DNA of 64,000 nt, taken from Streptomyces caniferus. GTDB lineage: Bacteria; Actinomycetota; Actinomycetes; Streptomycetales; Streptomycetaceae. The translations under genes and the position numbers were made by a program. Below are positions 3,374 through 24,924 of this stretch, piece after piece. Numbering within the stretch: position 1 is the first letter of the stretch; each line of letters starts with the position of its first letter. Location of the stretch: the NCBI RefSeq assembly GCF_009811555.1, contig NZ_BLIN01000002.1, forward strand, positions 1-64,000. The letters run 5' to 3'. The notes beneath the pieces were generated by a model. The model was not told where the DNA came from. It saw nothing but the letters and a program-made list of their open reading frames with translations, and ran no database searches.

Positions 3374-4060
3374 TCAGGCGGGTGCTCCGAGAACGGTGTT
3401 GATCCGCTGCGGGTCGCCGCAGACGATCAGCAGCGTTCCGGCACGGGCCATCGCCGCGGGCAGCGCCTGCGCGGTGACCTCGTCCGTACCGCCGTTCATG
3501 GCGACGACCACGACGGGCCGGCCGGTGGCACGCTCGGCACCGGCGTCCGCGTAGAACACATCGTCCGCGGCGTCGTGTTGGGCCCAGTAGGACGCCTCGC
3601 CGAAGGACAGTTCATGCGCGGCCCACGGGTGCGTTTCACCGGTGGTCAGCATCAGGATGTCGCCCGGCGCACGCCCGGAGTCCAGCAGCAGGTCGACGGC
3701 CTCGTCGGCGGCGTCGACGGCGCCGGCGGCGGGTGCCGGGATCAGCTGGAGCTGTGCTCCCGCGGCGGCGCCGGGCTGGCCGGCGGGCGGCTGCGGGGAG
3801 CTGGTGCGCTGCGCCGGCGGAGCGGCGACAGGACCACGCGGCGGGGCAGCAGGTCCGGGCTTGCCCGGACGGACACTGGACGCGGGGCCACGCGGCGGCG
3901 CGGGGCGGGGACCGGGACCAGGAACGGGACGGGGGGTCGGCGCGGTACGGCCGGCGGCCGGAGTTGCGCGGGGACCCGGGACACTCTCGTGAATCTGAGG
4001 CTCCTCGGGGATGAGAGGCATAAAGGGATGTCTATCAAACGTAAGTGCGGAACGCGTCAT
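3374..4060 (-). CDS. Pro-rich protein with a helicase C-terminal-like domain
   Basis: This 228-residue protein is last in a leftward group, 27 nt after rnhB. Residues ~20-105 are Pro/Ala/Gly-rich and presumably unstructured. Residues ~110-228 form a compact alpha/beta unit (DEAVDLLLDSG, GDILMLTTGETHPWA, GRPVVVVAMNG, AGTLLIVCGDP). The spacing of these strands resembles the last RecA-like subdomain of UvrD-type helicases, where ILMLTTG-like and VVVVAMNG-like strands occur, but no Walker motif is present, so catalysis is not expected. That resemblance is my inference. The partner and role are unknown. Confidence 0.65.
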   Translation of the reverse strand: MTRSALTFDRHPFMPLIPEEPQIHESVPGPRATPAAGRTAPTPRPVPGPGPRPAPPRGPASSVRPGKPGPAAPPRGPVAAPPAQRTSSPQPPAGQPGAAAGAQLQLIPAPAAGAVDAADEAVDLLLDSGRAPGDILMLTTGETHPWAAHELSFGEASYWAQHDAADDVFYADAGAERATGRPVVVVAMNGGTDEVTAQALPAAMARAGTLLIVCGDPQRINTVLGAPA

Positions 4061-18558: not shown

Positions 18559-20325
18559 TCACGGGTGATGGAGCGGGTTGGGCACGGTTCCGTGCACGGC
18601 CGCGTGCGGGCGGTCGCGGCGGTCCCGGTAACCGTCCACATGCAGACGGTTGCGGTTCAGGCACAGCCGCTCGATCCGCGGGGTGAGCAGGTCGAAGGTC
18701 TCGTACCGCTCCTTGAGCGCGGGGAAGCGCTCGTGGTGGCGCAGGATCTCGGTCCGTACGAGTGACCAGAACGCGGCCTCGGGAACGTCCAGTTGGTCCG
18801 CACACAGCGGCGCGAGGTAGCGGAAGACGCCGACGAACAGCCCGGAGTGGATGAACTGGGTGAGGAAGGCGGGCGGTTCGGTCAGCAGCACCGCCCGTAC
18901 GTCGTCCGGCATGGAGTCGTGCTCGGGGAGCGGCCGGGAGCTGGTGTTGACGTCGTCGACGAAGTCCTTGACCGCGAGGCGGGTGGGGACGTCGTGCTCG
19001 TCGAAGACGACGATGGCGTTCTCGCCGTGCGGGGAGAAGACCGTGCCGTACTGGTAGAGGAAGTGCAGCAGGGGCGGCAGCAGGGCGGCGAACAGCCGGG
19101 CCAGCCAGTCGCGCGGGGCCAGCCCCGAGCGGCGCACCAGCTCCGCGGTCAGGGCGCGCCCCTGGGGATCGGTCTGCAGCAGCGCGGCCAGGGTGCGGGC
19201 GCGTTCACCGGGGTCCAGATGGACGCTGACCGGCTCGCGCCAGATACAGCCGAGCAGCTCCTTGAACTGGTACGGGACGCCGGGAAGCCGGTCGTAGAGG
19301 GGGTGCTCGACGGTGACCGAGGCGGTCTCGCCGAGCAGGATCACCCGGGTCTCGTCGCGCAGATAGGGGTCGGCGTCGCGCAGGCCGTGCACCCAGCGGG
19401 TGACGGCGGGCGCGGCGAGGGTGCGCTCGGTGGGCAGTCCGCGCCAGACCAGGGTGTTGAGGATGGACAGCGGCAGTTTGACCGTGCGGGCCCGTGGGCG
19501 GCTGAGGTTGAGGAAGGTGCGGATCGACTGCTGCGGCAGGCGGAGGTCGTTGTCAGTGGGCAGCGCGATGATGGATCTGTCGGCGAGCTGCGGGGCGAAG
19601 AGCGGGGCGGTGGTCTCGTCCCACTGCCAGGGATGGACGGGGAGGTAGAGGTAGTCGGCGGGGTCGTGGCCCTCGTCGGAGATGGTGCGGGCGAAGGCGT
19701 GACGGGTGGCGGGGTCGAGCTCCTCGCCGTAGAGACGGTCGGGGGTGGCCAGGGTGGGGATACCGCGGTAGTGGGCGATGCTGTGGTGCGCGGCGAGCCA
19801 GGGCAGGCGCTGGGCGGTGCGGGCCTCGGGGGCCCAGGTCGCCGCGTCGTGGGCGGAGAAGCCGAGCCGGCCCTTGTTCGCGACGAGCCAGGGGTGGCCG
19901 GTCTGGTGGCCTTCGAGGGTGGCGTAGTCCAGGTCCGCGAGTTCGGCGGCGCTGAGTGCGGTGGCGTCGAGCCGGGTGTCGGCGGCGAGGGTGGCGGTCA
20001 GCTCGCGGATGAGATGGCCGGTGGTGTCGCCGGACAGGCCCAGCACGGTGTCGTGCGCGTGGGTCAGGAAGCGGAAGGGGTCGGCGTCGGGGGTGATCGA
20101 CTCGGGGTCCACGCGCCAGTGGCCGTAGGCGCCGCGGCGGGCGCGGAAGCGGTAGACCAGGCCGTCGGTGACCGGCAGCCGGTATTGCGGGGTGCCGTCG
20201 TGGGCCGTGCCGTCGGGCTCGGGGGTGAGGACTTCCTCGTACGCGAACTCCGCCAGGGTCTTGGCGAACAGTCGGCGCGCGGCGTGCTGCCAGGCGCTGT
20301 GCGAAGGCTGGGGCTCAGGCGACAA
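18559..20325 (-). CDS. IucA/IucC family siderophore synthetase (DesD-like)
   Basis: NRPS-independent siderophore (NIS) synthetases adenylate a carboxylate and condense it with an amine or hydroxylamine. At 588 residues this matches the family. Marks include KLPLSILNTLVWRG, the HPWQWDE motif, SPHGENAIVVFDEHDVPTRL (nucleotide site) and KDFVDDVN. I chose the TTG at 20325, 6 nt behind GAGGAG, over an ATG 11 codons upstream that has no ribosome binding site. It is the last gene of the four-gene operon. Like the other synthetase it ends in VPNPL. Overall it is closer in style to the DesD/IucC branch. The substrate is unknown. Confidence 0.9.
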   Translation of the reverse strand: MSPEPQPSHSAWQHAARRLFAKTLAEFAYEEVLTPEPDGTAHDGTPQYRLPVTDGLVYRFRARRGAYGHWRVDPESITPDADPFRFLTHAHDTVLGLSGDTTGHLIRELTATLAADTRLDATALSAAELADLDYATLEGHQTGHPWLVANKGRLGFSAHDAATWAPEARTAQRLPWLAAHHSIAHYRGIPTLATPDRLYGEELDPATRHAFARTISDEGHDPADYLYLPVHPWQWDETTAPLFAPQLADRSIIALPTDNDLRLPQQSIRTFLNLSRPRARTVKLPLSILNTLVWRGLPTERTLAAPAVTRWVHGLRDADPYLRDETRVILLGETASVTVEHPLYDRLPGVPYQFKELLGCIWREPVSVHLDPGERARTLAALLQTDPQGRALTAELVRRSGLAPRDWLARLFAALLPPLLHFLYQYGTVFSPHGENAIVVFDEHDVPTRLAVKDFVDDVNTSSRPLPEHDSMPDDVRAVLLTEPPAFLTQFIHSGLFVGVFRYLAPLCADQLDVPEAAFWSLVRTEILRHHERFPALKERYETFDLLTPRIERLCLNRNRLHVDGYRDRRDRPHAAVHGTVPNPLHHP

Positions 20326-20430
20326 GGCGGGCTCCTCGAAGCGGGACCGCCCCGGCACGTACGGGGGACAACCGGGGCAGCGGGGGTGGACGGCGGACCG
20401 GAACGGGACCGTCGACGGACGGCGCCGGGG

Positions 20431-21132
20431 TCAGAGCAGGTGGCGGTGGGCGCGGTCGCGGACCATCAACGCCGCGCGTTTGCCGGGAAGTTCGATCTCG
20501 TCGCCGTAGCGGAATCCCGCGCTCAGGAAGGCCGCGACGGAGACGGTGTTGCGCAGATCGGGTTCGGCGAGGACACGTGCGCACTGCGGTCGGTGATCGA
20601 GTACGAGATCGGCGGTGGCGCGCAGCAGCATGCCGCCCAGCCCGCGTCCCCGGTCGCCGGCGCCGCCGATGAGCAGATGGACACCGGTGTCCTGGAGCCG
20701 GGCCGGGTAGTGGCGGGCGAGCGGGTCCAGATCGGCGCGGTAGATCTCCCAGTAGCTCATCGGAACCCCGGCCAGCACCCCCAGGCAGGGCACACTGCGG
20801 CCGTCGCCGTCGAGCTGGCCGCGCAGATGGGCGGCCGTGGTCTCCGGCGGGCCCGCCAGCTCCCAGAAGGCCGCCACGGCCGGATCGTTCATCCAGCCGG
20901 TGATCCGGTCGAGATCGCGGTCCGGCCGGACGGGGACGAGCTCGAACGGCCCGGCGGGGGTGTCGGCCGCCCCCCAGCCCGCGAGCTGGTCGAGCAGCGG
21001 GCCGGCGGCCGGCTCGTCCGGGGGCGTTTGCTGCCCGTGTCCCTCGGCGAACAGCGCGCTGAATTCGGGCGGGAGCTGCAGGTCGAGGGTGTCCTCGGAA
21101 CTGGAGCCGAGGTCGGACTCGGTGGGTGGCAC
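20431..21132 (-). CDS. GNAT-family acyltransferase of the siderophore operon (RhbD/IucB-like)
   Basis: This group acylates an amine or hydroxylamine during siderophore assembly. The product has 233 residues. The N-terminal ~60 residues are variable and acidic; the C-terminal GNAT domain shows WMNDPAVAAFWEL, YWEIYRADLDPLARHY, then the acetyl-CoA loop GDRGRGLGGMLLRA and RVLAEPDLRNTVSVAAFLSAGF. These are the hallmarks of the RhbD/AlcB/IucB-type lysine- or diamine-N-acetyltransferases. It lies between two synthetase genes on the same strand. Confidence 0.88.
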   Translation of the reverse strand: MPPTESDLGSSSEDTLDLQLPPEFSALFAEGHGQQTPPDEPAAGPLLDQLAGWGAADTPAGPFELVPVRPDRDLDRITGWMNDPAVAAFWELAGPPETTAAHLRGQLDGDGRSVPCLGVLAGVPMSYWEIYRADLDPLARHYPARLQDTGVHLLIGGAGDRGRGLGGMLLRATADLVLDHRPQCARVLAEPDLRNTVSVAAFLSAGFRYGDEIELPGKRAALMVRDRAHRHLL

Positions 21133-21234
21133 GGCGACACTCTCCTCTCGTGGCCGCGTGCCGCGTGGCCTGATGGGTCGCGGGGCGCCGGCGCCGGGGG
21201 GCGGAAGGCTGCTGACGGAGGTTGCGGTGGGCGG

Positions 21235-23253
21235 CTACGGGGCGAGGGGGTTGGGCACGGTGACGTAGACGGACTGGGTCTCGACCGGGCCGACGAGTTC
21301 GTCCATGCCGTGCAGCCGGGTCGCCAGGTTGGCCTTGCAGCGCAGCGTGCGGGCGGCGAGCAACTGCTCCGGGAGCGGCGAGCGGTGCGCCCGGGGGGCC
21401 GCGGCGGCATCGGCCAGGAACCGCCGGAAGGCGGCGAGCAGGATCTCCTCACGGACCAGGCGCTGGGAGCCGAAGGCGCCGATGAGGCCTAGGACGTTGT
21501 TGATGCCGAGGTAGTAGGCGAAGCGTTCGTCGGTGACGTCGTCGGCGACGAAGCTGTCGCTGGACTCGCCGATGCCGGGCAGCCGCCGCTCCAGCTCGGC
21601 GCGGCGGGAGGCGCGGAAATAGTAGCCCTGGTTGTCGCGGTAGCGGCCGCCGACCGGCCAGCCGTCGGGGTCCAGCAGCACCACGGTGTTCTGCTGGTGG
21701 GCTTCGAGCACGATGCCGGCCGTGCCGTCGAGCCACAGCACGGGCCGGACGACCGCTTCCAGGTAGCGCAGGAACCACTCGGTGGCCACCGCCTCCAGGG
21801 GGCGGCCGGTGCGGGCGCCGAGCGTGTGGACCAGGTCTTCGAGCCGGGAGCGCACGCCCGAGCGGCCGGGCCAGGGCCGGGGGGAGGTGAGGCCGGCGAT
21901 GCACACCGCGTCGTCGGTGGTGCTGAAGGGGTTGTGGCGGATGACGACATCGAGGCCCTGGACCGGCGCGCCGTCGAAGCCGTCGACGGCGAGATAGGCC
22001 GGGTCGCGGACGATGTCGAAGCCCGGGTGGACGGTCTGCCACTGCTCGGCGAGGCCGGTGCGCAGCAGGCGGTGCACCTCGACGCCGCGGGCGAGCTCCT
22101 TACGGAGGTTCTCCCGGCGGGAGTTGGTGATCCGCAGCCCGAGGGAGAGCTTCAGCATGGCGTTCGCGTCGGGGCGGTAGACCGTGCGGACGGAGGAGGT
22201 GGGGTGCCAGAGCGGGCCGTGGACCCCGAGGTCGTGCAGCAGGCCGGCCTCGCGGAGGGCCGCGATGTCGGCGCGGTCGGCGAGCTCCCTGGCCTGCCAG
22301 GGGTGCAGCGGCAACGGCACGGTGTCGTCGGGGAGTCGGAGGCCGTCGCCCGCGAGGTCCCGGGCGAGCTGCTCGGCCGGTACGGGCTTGCCGCGTTCGG
22401 TCCAGGCGGAGTCGGCGGCCAGGACGGAGCGGTGCACGGCCGTCCAGTGGAGCGGGAAGGCGCCGCGGAGTTCGGGCGAATAGGCCCGGGTCTCGGCATC
22501 GGAGAGGCCCTCGCGGCTCTTGGGTGTGGGGTGCAGCGGGTGGCCGAGGAGCAGGGACTGTTCGGCTTCGAGGAAGAGGGCGCCGTGGTCGTCGGCGGGC
22601 CGGGCCCGCCGGTCGGTGAGGAAGGTGGCGACGTTCCGTACGGAGTTGGCGACCCGGCCGATGAGTTCGGCACCGGCGCCGTCCGGGGCCTGCTGCCGTT
22701 CGGCGTCCGGAGCCGGCCGCTCGTCGGTGTCCGCCACCCGGTGCTCGCCGCCGTCGGAGGCCCGGCGGTCGCCGTACGCGGCCTCCCGGCGCAGCAGCGC
22801 GGCGAGGGTGACGGCGTCCAGGGGGGCGGCGCCGGCCGGGGCGCCTTCGAGGGTGGGGGCGCCGAGACGGTGCCAGCCCGTGGGCGACCAGTAGCGGACG
22901 GGGAGGTGCAGGGCGCCCGCGGCGGCGCGCAGGGGGATGCGCACTCCGCCTTCGGCCGGGCGGGGGGTGCCGCTCTCGCGGATCCAGCAGCGCAGCAGGT
23001 GCTCGATGCCCGCGGCGTCGGCGGCGACCGCCGGGTCGGGGTGGTCGAGGGGGTCGTGGTCACCGGACGGGAGGTGGTCGTAGGGGCCGGGGGCACCGTG
23101 GTGGGCGGCCGGGTCCGGGGCCTCGTGGGTGTGGCAGGCGTCGCCCGGGGCGCGCCGCTGCTGGCGCGGTACGGACTCGATGGTGCCCGCGCCCTGGTGG
23201 GCGGGGACGCGCTCGGCGGACTGGCCGCCGTCGGGGCCGGGGCGTTCGTTCAT
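21235..23253 (-). CDS. IucA/IucC family siderophore synthetase, second copy with long N-terminal extension
   Basis: A second NIS synthetase of 672 residues. Motifs: HPWQARELADRAD, KLSLGLRITNSRRENLRKEL, RHNPFSTTDDAV and LEAHQQNTVVLLD. The first ~75 residues are Gly/Pro/His/Asp-rich (DHDPLDHPDPA) and look disordered, an unusual extension for the family. The ATG at 23253 overlaps the aminotransferase stop by 4 nt (ATGA), implying translational coupling. The C terminus VTVPNPLAP repeats the VPNPL ending of the partner synthetase. The two enzymes presumably perform two sequential condensations. Confidence 0.9.
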   Translation of the reverse strand: MNERPGPDGGQSAERVPAHQGAGTIESVPRQQRRAPGDACHTHEAPDPAAHHGAPGPYDHLPSGDHDPLDHPDPAVAADAAGIEHLLRCWIRESGTPRPAEGGVRIPLRAAAGALHLPVRYWSPTGWHRLGAPTLEGAPAGAAPLDAVTLAALLRREAAYGDRRASDGGEHRVADTDERPAPDAERQQAPDGAGAELIGRVANSVRNVATFLTDRRARPADDHGALFLEAEQSLLLGHPLHPTPKSREGLSDAETRAYSPELRGAFPLHWTAVHRSVLAADSAWTERGKPVPAEQLARDLAGDGLRLPDDTVPLPLHPWQARELADRADIAALREAGLLHDLGVHGPLWHPTSSVRTVYRPDANAMLKLSLGLRITNSRRENLRKELARGVEVHRLLRTGLAEQWQTVHPGFDIVRDPAYLAVDGFDGAPVQGLDVVIRHNPFSTTDDAVCIAGLTSPRPWPGRSGVRSRLEDLVHTLGARTGRPLEAVATEWFLRYLEAVVRPVLWLDGTAGIVLEAHQQNTVVLLDPDGWPVGGRYRDNQGYYFRASRRAELERRLPGIGESSDSFVADDVTDERFAYYLGINNVLGLIGAFGSQRLVREEILLAAFRRFLADAAAAPRAHRSPLPEQLLAARTLRCKANLATRLHGMDELVGPVETQSVYVTVPNPLAP

Positions 23254-24644
23254 GGGGAGGTGCCTCGCATTGTCGTGGGGGACGAGCCCGTCGGCCCGGG
23301 GGTGGTGCGGACCGCCGCCGTGATGGCGTCGGCGAGGCGGTCGAGGATGGCGTCCGCCTGTTCGTCGGTGATGGTGAGGGGTGGCAGCAGCCGGACGACG
23401 GCGGAGTGCCTGCCGCCCAGTTCGACGATCAGGCCGCGGTCCAGGCAGGCGTGCTGGACGGCGGCGGCGAGCCGGGGGTCGGCGGGGCGGGCGCCCGTGG
23501 CATCCGCGTCGGCGGAGCGGTCGACGAGCTCGACGCCGAGCATCAGCCCGCGGCCGCGGACGTCACCGATGCAGTCATGGGCGGCGGCGAGGGAGCCGAG
23601 GCGGTCGAGCATCCGGGCGCCGAGTTCCCCGGCCCGCCGGTCGAGGCCGTGGGTGCGGACGTAGGCGAGGGTGGCGGCGCCGGCGGCCATGGCGAGCTGG
23701 TTGCCGCGGAAGGTGCCCGCGTGAGCGCCGGGCTGCCAGGCGTCGAGTTCCTCGCGGTAGACGATCACGGCGAGCGGCAGGCTGCCGCCGATCGCCTTCG
23801 ACAGCACGATCACATCGGGCACGATGCCGCTGTGGTCGACCGCCCAGAAGGCGCCGGTGCGGCCGACGCCGGTCTGCACCTCGTCCACGATCAGCGGGAT
23901 CTGCCGGGCTGCGGTGATCTCCCGCATCCGCCGCAGCCAGCCGTCTGGCGCGGGGATCACTCCGCCCTCGCCCTGGACGGGTTCGAGGATCATCCCGGCC
24001 GGCTGGGACACCCCGCTCTTGTGGTCGTCCAGCAGGCTCTGGGTCCAGCGCGCGGCGAGCTCGGCACCGCGCTCGCCGCCGGTCTGGAAGGGGCAGCGGT
24101 AGTCATAGGGGTAGGGCAGCCGGACCACGCTGGTGTGCTGCGCTCCCCCGGAGGCGGCGAGCGCCTGTGAGGTCATGCCGTGGTAGGCGCCGGAGAAGGC
24201 CATCAGCCCGTCCCGGCCGGTCGCGGTGCGGACGAGCTTGAACGCGGCCTCGACGGCGTCCGTGCCGGCCGGGCCGCAGAACTGGATGCGCCCCTTTTCG
24301 GCCAACTCACGCGGCAGGGTGGCGAACAGCTCGGTGGTGAAGGCGTCCTTGACGGGGGTGGCCAGGTCGAGGACGTGCAGCGGCGCACCGGAGTCGAGGA
24401 CCGCCCGGATCGCTTCGAGCACCACCGGGTGGTTGTGGCCGAGCGCCAGGGTTCCGGCGCCGGAGAGGCAGTCGAGGTAGCGCCTGCCGTCGGCGCCCTC
24501 GATGGTCAGCCCGCGGGCGCGCACCGGGACGATGGGCAGCGAGCGCGCGTAGGTGCGGGCAGCGGACTCGCGCAGGGACTGCCGCCGCAGGATCCCCTCA
24601 TGGGCCGACGGCACGGCCGCCGGCATGGTTTCGGTCAACGCCAC
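23250..24644 (-). CDS. Diaminobutyrate--2-oxoglutarate aminotransferase-like enzyme (RhbA/EctB type)
   Basis: A fold-type I PLP aminotransferase of 464 residues. The likely reaction is aspartate semialdehyde plus an amino donor to L-2,4-diaminobutyrate, the diamine precursor seen in rhizobactin-type siderophores. Motifs: YLDCLSGAGTLALGHNHP, GAYHGMTSQ, LIVDEVQTGVGRTG and the PLP lysine in VLSKAIGGSLPLAV. The start is GTG at 24644, behind AGGAGG. It is the first gene of the operon and overlaps the next by 4 nt. No ectA or ectC is nearby, so an ectoine role is unlikely. The 280-nt upstream gap lacks an obvious TTAGG-type iron box. Confidence 0.9.
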   Translation of the reverse strand: MALTETMPAAVPSAHEGILRRQSLRESAARTYARSLPIVPVRARGLTIEGADGRRYLDCLSGAGTLALGHNHPVVLEAIRAVLDSGAPLHVLDLATPVKDAFTTELFATLPRELAEKGRIQFCGPAGTDAVEAAFKLVRTATGRDGLMAFSGAYHGMTSQALAASGGAQHTSVVRLPYPYDYRCPFQTGGERGAELAARWTQSLLDDHKSGVSQPAGMILEPVQGEGGVIPAPDGWLRRMREITAARQIPLIVDEVQTGVGRTGAFWAVDHSGIVPDVIVLSKAIGGSLPLAVIVYREELDAWQPGAHAGTFRGNQLAMAAGAATLAYVRTHGLDRRAGELGARMLDRLGSLAAAHDCIGDVRGRGLMLGVELVDRSADADATGARPADPRLAAAVQHACLDRGLIVELGGRHSAVVRLLPPLTITDEQADAILDRLADAITAAVRTTPGPTGSSPTTMRGTSP

Positions 24645-24924
24645 GGCAGTTGTGTCCTCCTGCTGGTGAGCTGCTGGTGCCGCGCGGGCTGGGGGCAGCC
24701 CGGGACGTCCCCCGTACGTACCAACGACGGCGGCGACCCGAGATCACGGTTGTCGGCAAGATCCTTGATGGCGTGGAACCGGGGACCCGAGTACCGCCGT
24801 CCCCATCGTCACCGGCATAGTGGGGTGTTGCGCCGGGATCTTGGGGTTCATGACAAAGAACAGACCGGTGCAACACCGAACACGCCACACCGGATCAGTC
24901 CGATTCACCAGGGGGAGCTCACCC

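Follow-up and report, generated by a model that had tools for sequence, protein, structure and literature searches.

A four-gene siderophore operon of Streptomyces caniferus and a distant decarboxylase-monooxygenase pair as a probable split schizokinen-type pathway

Schizokinen, a citrate molecule carrying two acetyl-hydroxy-diaminopropane arms, and rhizobactin 1021, the siderophore of the rhbABCDEF operon of Sinorhizobium meliloti, are the described products closest to the system studied here, and in the rhodochelin and erythrochelin pathways, which depend on nonribosomal peptide synthetases (NRPS), distant tailoring genes feed one assembly line. Among streptomycetes, the passages available report schizokinen, detected by liquid chromatography-mass spectrometry (LC-MS), in S. 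anulatus RLA103 with assignment to a numbered biosynthetic gene cluster (BGC) (PMC11865988), and putative or tentative schizokinen, also by LC-MS, in S. mutomycini SL02 and Streptomyces sp. SL03, with a numbered BGC for each strain (PMC13136089). These passages name one BGC per strain and mention neither a second locus nor a knock-out (PMC11865988, PMC13136089). The present work concerns a 64,000-nucleotide stretch of the S. caniferus genome (positions 1 to 64,000 of contig NZ_BLIN01000002.1), called the window here, in which four co-directional genes with open reading frames (ORFs) form a siderophore operon on the minus strand at 18559-24644.

The operon and a decarboxylase-monooxygenase pair found elsewhere in the same genome probably constitute one schizokinen/rhizobactin-type NRPS-independent siderophore (NIS) pathway that is spread over two loci. 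The operon looks like two thirds of such a pathway, with the two absent enzymes encoded at a second chromosomal place. Its genes, in order of transcription, are as follows.

23250..24644, minus strand: L-2,4-diaminobutyrate aminotransferase, RhbA-like; first gene, 464 aa, GTG start, PF00202
21235..23253, minus strand: NIS synthetase 1, type A-like, RhbC-like; 672 aa, IucA/IucC and FhuF domains (PF04183 and PF06276)
20431..21132, minus strand: GNAT N-acyltransferase, RhbD-like; 233 aa, PF13523 at 151.9 bits
18559..20358, minus strand: NIS synthetase 2, type C-like, RhbF-like; last gene, 599 aa, PF04183 and PF06276

When compared with the annotated rhb operon of S. meliloti (locus L062, NZ_CP021821.1), the four proteins share 53% identity with RhbA, 40% with RhbC, 37% with RhbD and 40% with RhbF, respectively, and each is closer to its Rhb counterpart than to the Des proteins of the desferrioxamine pathway in the same genome, where the latter match (28% for the GNAT with DesC, 35% for synthetase 2 with DesD). 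The first protein is a class-III aminotransferase that scores 501.8 bits against TIGR00709, the diaminobutyrate--2-oxoglutarate transaminase family, for which the cut-off is 401.6, and it shares the motif VLSKAIGG with RhbA; a diaminobutyrate aminotransferase, as expected for a rhizobactin/schizokinen-type pathway, is present. The nearest solved relative of synthetase 1 is IucA (type A), and its HPWQ and SSVRT motifs also occur in RhbC, HPWQ and S-x-RT being synthetase motifs common with the Rhb proteins; as judged by this likeness, synthetase 1 would activate citrate. The GNAT, whose PMSYWE motif is common with RhbD, has MbtK as its nearest solved relative and is a hydroxylamine N-acyltransferase of the RhbD kind. 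The nearest solved relatives of synthetase 2 are AlcC-type (the alcaligin protein), DesD and IucC, so that a citrate-activating and a type-C synthetase, typed by likeness, appear to be paired in the operon. The aminotransferase and synthetase 1 genes overlap by 4 bases, the remaining gaps are 102 and 72 bases, and a helicase gene lies 43 bases beyond the end of synthetase 2. The names used for the neighbouring genes (dinG for the helicase, hflX, lexA and a serine protease) are our own assignments by eye or gene order.

No match for a PF00282 decarboxylase or a PF13434 monooxygenase was obtained inside the window in the whole-genome profile searches. A preliminary description of this DNA, which had proposed a four-gene operon of rhizobactin/schizokinen-style genes with neither a decarboxylase nor a hydroxylase of its own, is confirmed on these points by coordinates, domains and profile searches. 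It had also called for a search of the genome for RhbB/DesA and RhbE/DesB homologues, and this revealed, besides the des genes, an extra decarboxylase-monooxygenase pair. Five PF00282 matches and two strong PF13434 matches were found in the genome. One adjacent pair lies at G000:C5:2276271-2279141 (locus L024), near pyruvate kinase and distinct from the des genes; another decarboxylase-monooxygenase set is housed in the des-type cluster (L026), whose gene names we presumed by eye or gene order. Hence, ‘missing’ applies to the operon, not to the genome. The pair is flanked on one side by genes for a SIMPL protein and pyruvate kinase and on the other by those for an MBL-fold protein, an M1 peptidase and an AraC regulator, and neither a des gene nor a synthetase was seen beside it in the stretches examined. 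The gene that separates the monooxygenase from the SIMPL gene is conserved, has the opposite orientation and is, as judged by eye, presumably nucleotidase-like.

The three best solved relatives of the monooxygenase of the pair, at 294-304 bits, are a protein labelled only ‘monooxygenase’, an ‘L-lysine 6-monooxygenase’ of a desferrioxamine pathway and a putrescine N-hydroxylase, while MbtG and ornithine hydroxylases trail at no more than 154 bits. The first of the three is DesB. As these nearest relatives come from diamine-hydroxylating pathways, the second locus offers a diamine N-monooxygenase (PF13434) that fits a diamine made by the decarboxylase. In pairwise comparison, the decarboxylase scores higher with RhbB (254 bits) than with DesA (201 bits).

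The relationship between the two loci is seen in sister genera. A monooxygenase match was present in 11 of 12 genomes of the same order outside Streptomyces (none in G202), and all 11 sister-genus loci that were fetched are contiguous, with the genes for aminotransferase, decarboxylase, synthetase 1, GNAT, monooxygenase and synthetase 2 in the rhbABCDEF order. Ten of these clusters include all six genes, the GNAT being undetectable in L047; three genera account for the 11 (7, 3 and 1 clusters), which are therefore not independent. In the S. caniferus genome, the corresponding genes are split over two loci. In maximum-likelihood trees, the split monooxygenases (12 rows from 9 genomes) form one group among the cluster-derived sequences with support of 100/100, and the split decarboxylases (31 rows from 26 genomes) do so with support of 99/98. 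In these trees, the pair is separate from the DesA and DesB rows, of which there are two each; DesA and DesB may still contribute in the cell. Support for the branch dividing cluster-derived sequences from Des and Rhb is 100/99 in the decarboxylase tree but drops to 88/78 in that of the monooxygenase, and Rhb forms a long branch in both trees. Three monooxygenase and five decarboxylase rows repeat a genome already represented, and the S. caniferus decarboxylase was entered as the part preceding a frame change. The suggestion that the missing steps are borrowed from another locus is thus well supported, by the pair itself and by its orthologues within the sister-genus clusters.

Two Streptomyces genomes (G018, locus L052, and G006, locus L060) have, besides the split genes, a second cluster of the same kind that is contiguous; no aminotransferase match was found in the L060 stretch and no RhbD-type GNAT match in L052. 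An Orn/Arg-type decarboxylase gene stands beside the clusters of L047 and L052, and L052 also has a weak GNAT-like gene.

In the pathway proposed, the aminotransferase would convert aspartate semialdehyde to L-2,4-diaminobutyrate, which the decarboxylase of the pair would turn into 1,3-diaminopropane. The monooxygenase would then hydroxylate one amine of 1,3-diaminopropane, and the GNAT would acylate the resulting hydroxylamine, probably with acetyl. Synthetase 1 would attach the first arm to citrate, and with the second arm, added by synthetase 2, the product would be a citrate dihydroxamate, for example schizokinen. A reference genome of S. anulatus, from a strain other than the reported producer, encodes the monooxygenase, and in it the GNAT, synthetase 2 and the end of synthetase 1 adjoin the helicase gene. 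Given this gene content and the schizokinen reports, schizokinen or a close acyl variant is favoured as the predicted product of the four-gene form.

Both loci are widespread in the genus. A synthetase 1 match at E 1e-30 was found in 191 of 199 Streptomyces genomes and a monooxygenase match at E 1e-60 in 197, DesB-level matches being counted in the latter. At E 1e-140, a threshold of our choosing that was applied to either synthetase on rows read by hand (synthetase 2 having been searched in 28 of the 199 genomes), the operon and the monooxygenase occur together in 175 genomes, the operon alone in 8, the monooxygenase alone in 11 and neither in 5. For this co-occurrence, Fisher p is 0.0015 (uncorrected for kinship), and the association between the two loci is only moderate, not strict; as 6-8 candidates were scored per genome, some absences may be false. 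At 80 named monooxygenase loci, a nearly complete decarboxylase match was obtained in 61 and a partial one in 11, and the other 8 gave none. Among 12 named genomes, synthetase 2 is present as a close copy in seven (S. noursei, S. kronopolitis, S. rimosus, S. alfalfae, S. indicus, S. globisporus and S. anulatus) and as a 51% copy in two, with none at 1e-100 in the other three. In G079, G099 and G196, a strong synthetase 1 is accompanied by a synthetase 2 of DesD level only and the monooxygenase is not clear, as if they were lost together; the G079 genome is 78% complete.

The preliminary description had also considered a carboxylate siderophore built directly on diaminobutyrate, which would resemble staphyloferrin or achromobactin and include no hydroxamate. 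This reading draws on the operon itself, in which decarboxylase and hydroxylase are lacking, and on the 8 of 183 operon-bearing congeners in which the monooxygenase is not clear, but it leaves an RhbD/MbtK-type acyltransferase with no obvious use and a synthetase 2 that is type-C-like, and it does not sit well with the decarboxylase and monooxygenase genes in 11 of 11 fetched sister-genus clusters or with the lack of an aminotransferase in 4 of 20 operons. Enzymes for hydroxamate formation are encoded, the acyltransferase in the operon and the monooxygenase at the second locus, and a carboxylate product is accordingly not supported and is held to be highly improbable.

The upstream regions of the two loci were scored for an iron box against a consensus sequence only. 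No site within 3 mismatches was found in the 64-kb window. Upstream of the aminotransferase of contiguous clusters (stretches of 660 bases, as against 410 for background), a box was found at 1-3 mismatches in 9 of 12, including L052 at 2 mismatches, and at 5-6 mismatches in the other three. For the split operon, the best upstream site has 9-10 mismatches in one set of 17 loci, one of them anchored inside the gene, and 7-12 in another of 19, which is background-like, as random window stretches gave 7-11; for the decarboxylase, the best upstream site has 6-11 mismatches (24 loci) or 7-10 (59 of the 80 named loci). Of the two positive controls, the desA gene of S. caniferus has a box at 1 mismatch, while that of L055 failed, its best site in the stretch examined having 10 mismatches. 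As judged by this consensus only, the split operon lacks a recognisable iron-regulated promoter and the pair likewise shows no box, and the box at des but not at the operon suggests that the two are likely expressed apart.

In place of an iron box, a different conserved element lies upstream of the operon:

24707..24730, minus strand: conserved 24-base upstream element CCGTCGTTGGTACGTACGGGGGAC, a possible promoter or regulator site

With S. caniferus counted, 24 of the 33 Streptomyces regions scored have the element at 4 or fewer mismatches before the aminotransferase gene, L076 having been excluded because it was anchored inside that gene. In one set, it accompanies 11 of 11 four-gene operons versus 2 of 8 three-gene operons. 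Its 21-base core has one match in the window and none in 100 shuffles. At least 8 mismatches separate it from the best site in 23 decarboxylase upstream regions and at least 7 from that in 12 contiguous clusters, and no motif common to the upstream regions of both split loci was found; no likeness of the element to a developmental sigma-factor promoter is claimed. In a published S. coelicolor array, SCO5799 and SCO5801 transcripts rise in differentiated mycelium at 48/72 h (log2 +1.3/+1.8 and +1.8/+1.3, respectively), while desA falls (log2 -3.7/-3.2) (PMC3610822). This pattern is consistent with, though no proof of, release of the operon from iron control.

Several observations weigh against a single pathway over two loci, the first group of which concerns the enzymes of the pair. 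In pairwise comparison, DesB (323 bits) comes out slightly ahead of RhbE (305 bits) as a match to the monooxygenase. An intact copy of the decarboxylase scores 280 bits against the RhbB equivalog model, which is still its best NCBIfam match, as compared with a cut-off of 900, and DesA scores 451 on the same model; by sequence, the gene is therefore no more than a candidate diaminobutyrate decarboxylase. In S. caniferus, moreover, the reading frame of the decarboxylase shifts in a C run around codon 400 (L024:10707-12141, minus strand), which may be an assembly error or a real break. When the gene was re-checked in 20 congeneric stretches, 18 gave a single uninterrupted match, the exceptions being L083 (an internal stop, perhaps the gene end) and L088 (two abutting pieces). 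An alternative is that DesA and DesB of the desferrioxamine cluster serve the operon as well, which would then make a cadaverine-based citrate hydroxamate. A des-type cluster is present in the genome, the reactions of DesA and DesB are of the required types, this assembly has a frame-shift in the other decarboxylase, and the 4 of 20 operons without an aminotransferase would not need one with lysine. Where present, however, the aminotransferase would be pointless with a lysine precursor, and a separate pair orthologous to the sister-cluster genes accompanies the operon in 175 of 183 congeners, as counted by the monooxygenase. In addition, the iron box at the S. caniferus des genes and its absence at the operon suggest separate expression, and borrowing from des is considered very unlikely.

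The second group of observations concerns distribution. In eleven congeners the monooxygenase is retained and no clear operon is present; eight of these show only a synthetase 1 match that is weaker (1e-104 to 1e-136) and may stem from a divergent cluster. The decarboxylase is uninterrupted in 7 of 8 fetched genomes lacking a clear operon (none was found in G014), and the pair may therefore have a second use. Conversely, the monooxygenase is not clear in eight operon-bearing congeners, two of which (G010 and G012) have it in pieces, and 5 of the 80 named monooxygenase loci show no decarboxylase despite upstream room. The genomes that keep the monooxygenase, mostly with an uninterrupted decarboxylase, but have no clear operon, together with the only moderate strength of the two-locus association, speak for a reading in which the pair chiefly serves another pathway, for example one for shorter-diamine desferrioxamines, and shares ancestry with the operon but not present function. 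Against this stand the six-gene order in sister genera, the presence of the monooxygenase in 175 of 183 operon-bearing genomes and the lack of any des gene or synthetase seen beside the pair in the stretches examined. A chief role in another pathway is thus regarded as unlikely.

The third group concerns the operon. Twenty congeneric operon loci, which were those with the lowest handles and listed coordinates and not a random draw, comprise 10 with all four genes, one with a remnant of synthetase 2 (L213), eight without synthetase 2 and one broken operon (L204), which retains only the GNAT and synthetase 1; 10 of the 20 thus have no complete synthetase 2. One of the eight, L205, lacks the aminotransferase as well. 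The remnant in L213 (G024, 3593-3838) encodes ~82 residues between the GNAT and helicase genes and is perhaps a synthetase 2 loss caught part-way. In a synthetase 1 tree, the missing synthetase 2 maps mainly to one clade of eight, the remnant included, plus two rows. In a separate set of 20 upstream stretches, no aminotransferase was found between the serine protease and synthetase 1 in L074 (G013), L080 (G047), L073 (G089) and L079 (G105); the same four loci gave no rows when 21 aminotransferase stretches were given for upstream scoring, which returned 17. Diaminobutyrate in such strains would come from elsewhere, e.g. the ectoine pathway.

Losses of this kind, with the broken decarboxylase of S. 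caniferus and the absence of iron control, might mark the operon as a decaying relic. The relic reading is nonetheless quite unlikely, as the operon is found in 183 of 199 congeners, its ORFs are open in the window and the upstream element is conserved; schizokinen has also been reported from Streptomyces, and SCO5799 and SCO5801 transcripts rise in differentiated S. coelicolor mycelium. A three-gene form without synthetase 2 would fit the SCO5799-5801 numbering, the comparison being by numbering only, and it needs another ending, which may be a mono-arm product or help from DesD, both of them hypothetical.

With a split schizokinen-type pathway retained as the probable explanation, a more speculative history can be put forward tentatively. 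An ancestral six-gene cluster with an iron box may have been split and freed from iron control, and would now provide a citrate hydroxamate late in development and not in response to iron starvation, while the clade without synthetase 2, perhaps including S. coelicolor, might make a mono-arm product or lend an intermediate to DesD. If the latter were true, the result would be a cross-wired siderophore.

Some further features were noted in the course of this work. The divergent serine-protease gene beside the operon gave two tandem matches in L198, L200, L201, L206, L210, L211, L212, L214 and L217. A fused decarboxylase-monooxygenase, suggested by one 960-codon frame with both domains, was dropped, since relatives encode a separate decarboxylase gene (L043, L044 and L045) and the S. 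caniferus decarboxylase contains a frame change. A second decarboxylase-monooxygenase pair, with 65% monooxygenase identity, lies next to a cobalamin-independent methionine synthase gene in G005 (L053:6988-9904), and no synthetase match was found in that 17-kb stretch. The S. caniferus genome also carries a second two-synthetase NIS cluster (L025:6400-15605; G000:C5:1290400-1299605), which encodes in addition a periplasmic binding protein, an ATP-grasp protein and an HpcH/HpaI aldolase.

The SCO5799-5801 type of cluster is widespread, as seen from the 183 of 199 Streptomyces genomes with the operon, and no product is given for it in the passages seen on SCO5799-5801. Its probable completion by an equally widespread second locus allows a well-defined product to be predicted, would account for its incomplete look to cluster-finding programs, and makes a named candidate of the orphan decarboxylase-hydroxylase pair that lies near pyruvate kinase. 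The lack of a recognisable iron box and the clade-wide loss of synthetase 2 raise the questions of when the chelator is made and what the three-gene form produces. No description of the split pathway was found in searches of the open-licence literature. The chemistry is known, and what differs is the unusual split, the absence of a recognisable iron box and the partial loss of synthetase 2.

In relation to known systems, the operon is presumably the counterpart of SCO5799-5801, an uncharacterised cluster that the preliminary description had put at the same place in S. coelicolor and that presumably lies near the same neighbour genes. In print, SCO5799-5801 is described either as a cluster of siderophore type or as one putatively for a siderophore (PMC3224560, PMC7324645); it differs in having three genes, as counted from its numbering. 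With desferrioxamine desABCD, the Streptomyces genes share the reaction types of decarboxylase, diamine hydroxylase, acyltransferase and type-C synthetase. The des set includes neither a citrate-activating synthetase nor a diaminobutyrate aminotransferase, however, and in S. caniferus its DesA and DesB stand apart from the split pair in trees and its genes have an iron box. With rhbABCDEF, all six enzyme types, the decarboxylase as a candidate, and several motifs are in common; the sister-genus clusters have the same gene order, and the window proteins are 37-53% identical. Unlike in S. meliloti, the Streptomyces equivalents of rhbB and rhbE lie at a separate locus, the lipid of rhizobactin 1021 is unaccounted for by the Streptomyces genes, and the ORFs adjoining the window operon gave no recognised receptor or transporter in a non-exhaustive search. 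Schizokinen is the kind of product that the Streptomyces enzyme set would predict. Rhodochelin and erythrochelin are NRPS products, whereas here an NIS pathway appears to be split, and in most of a genus.

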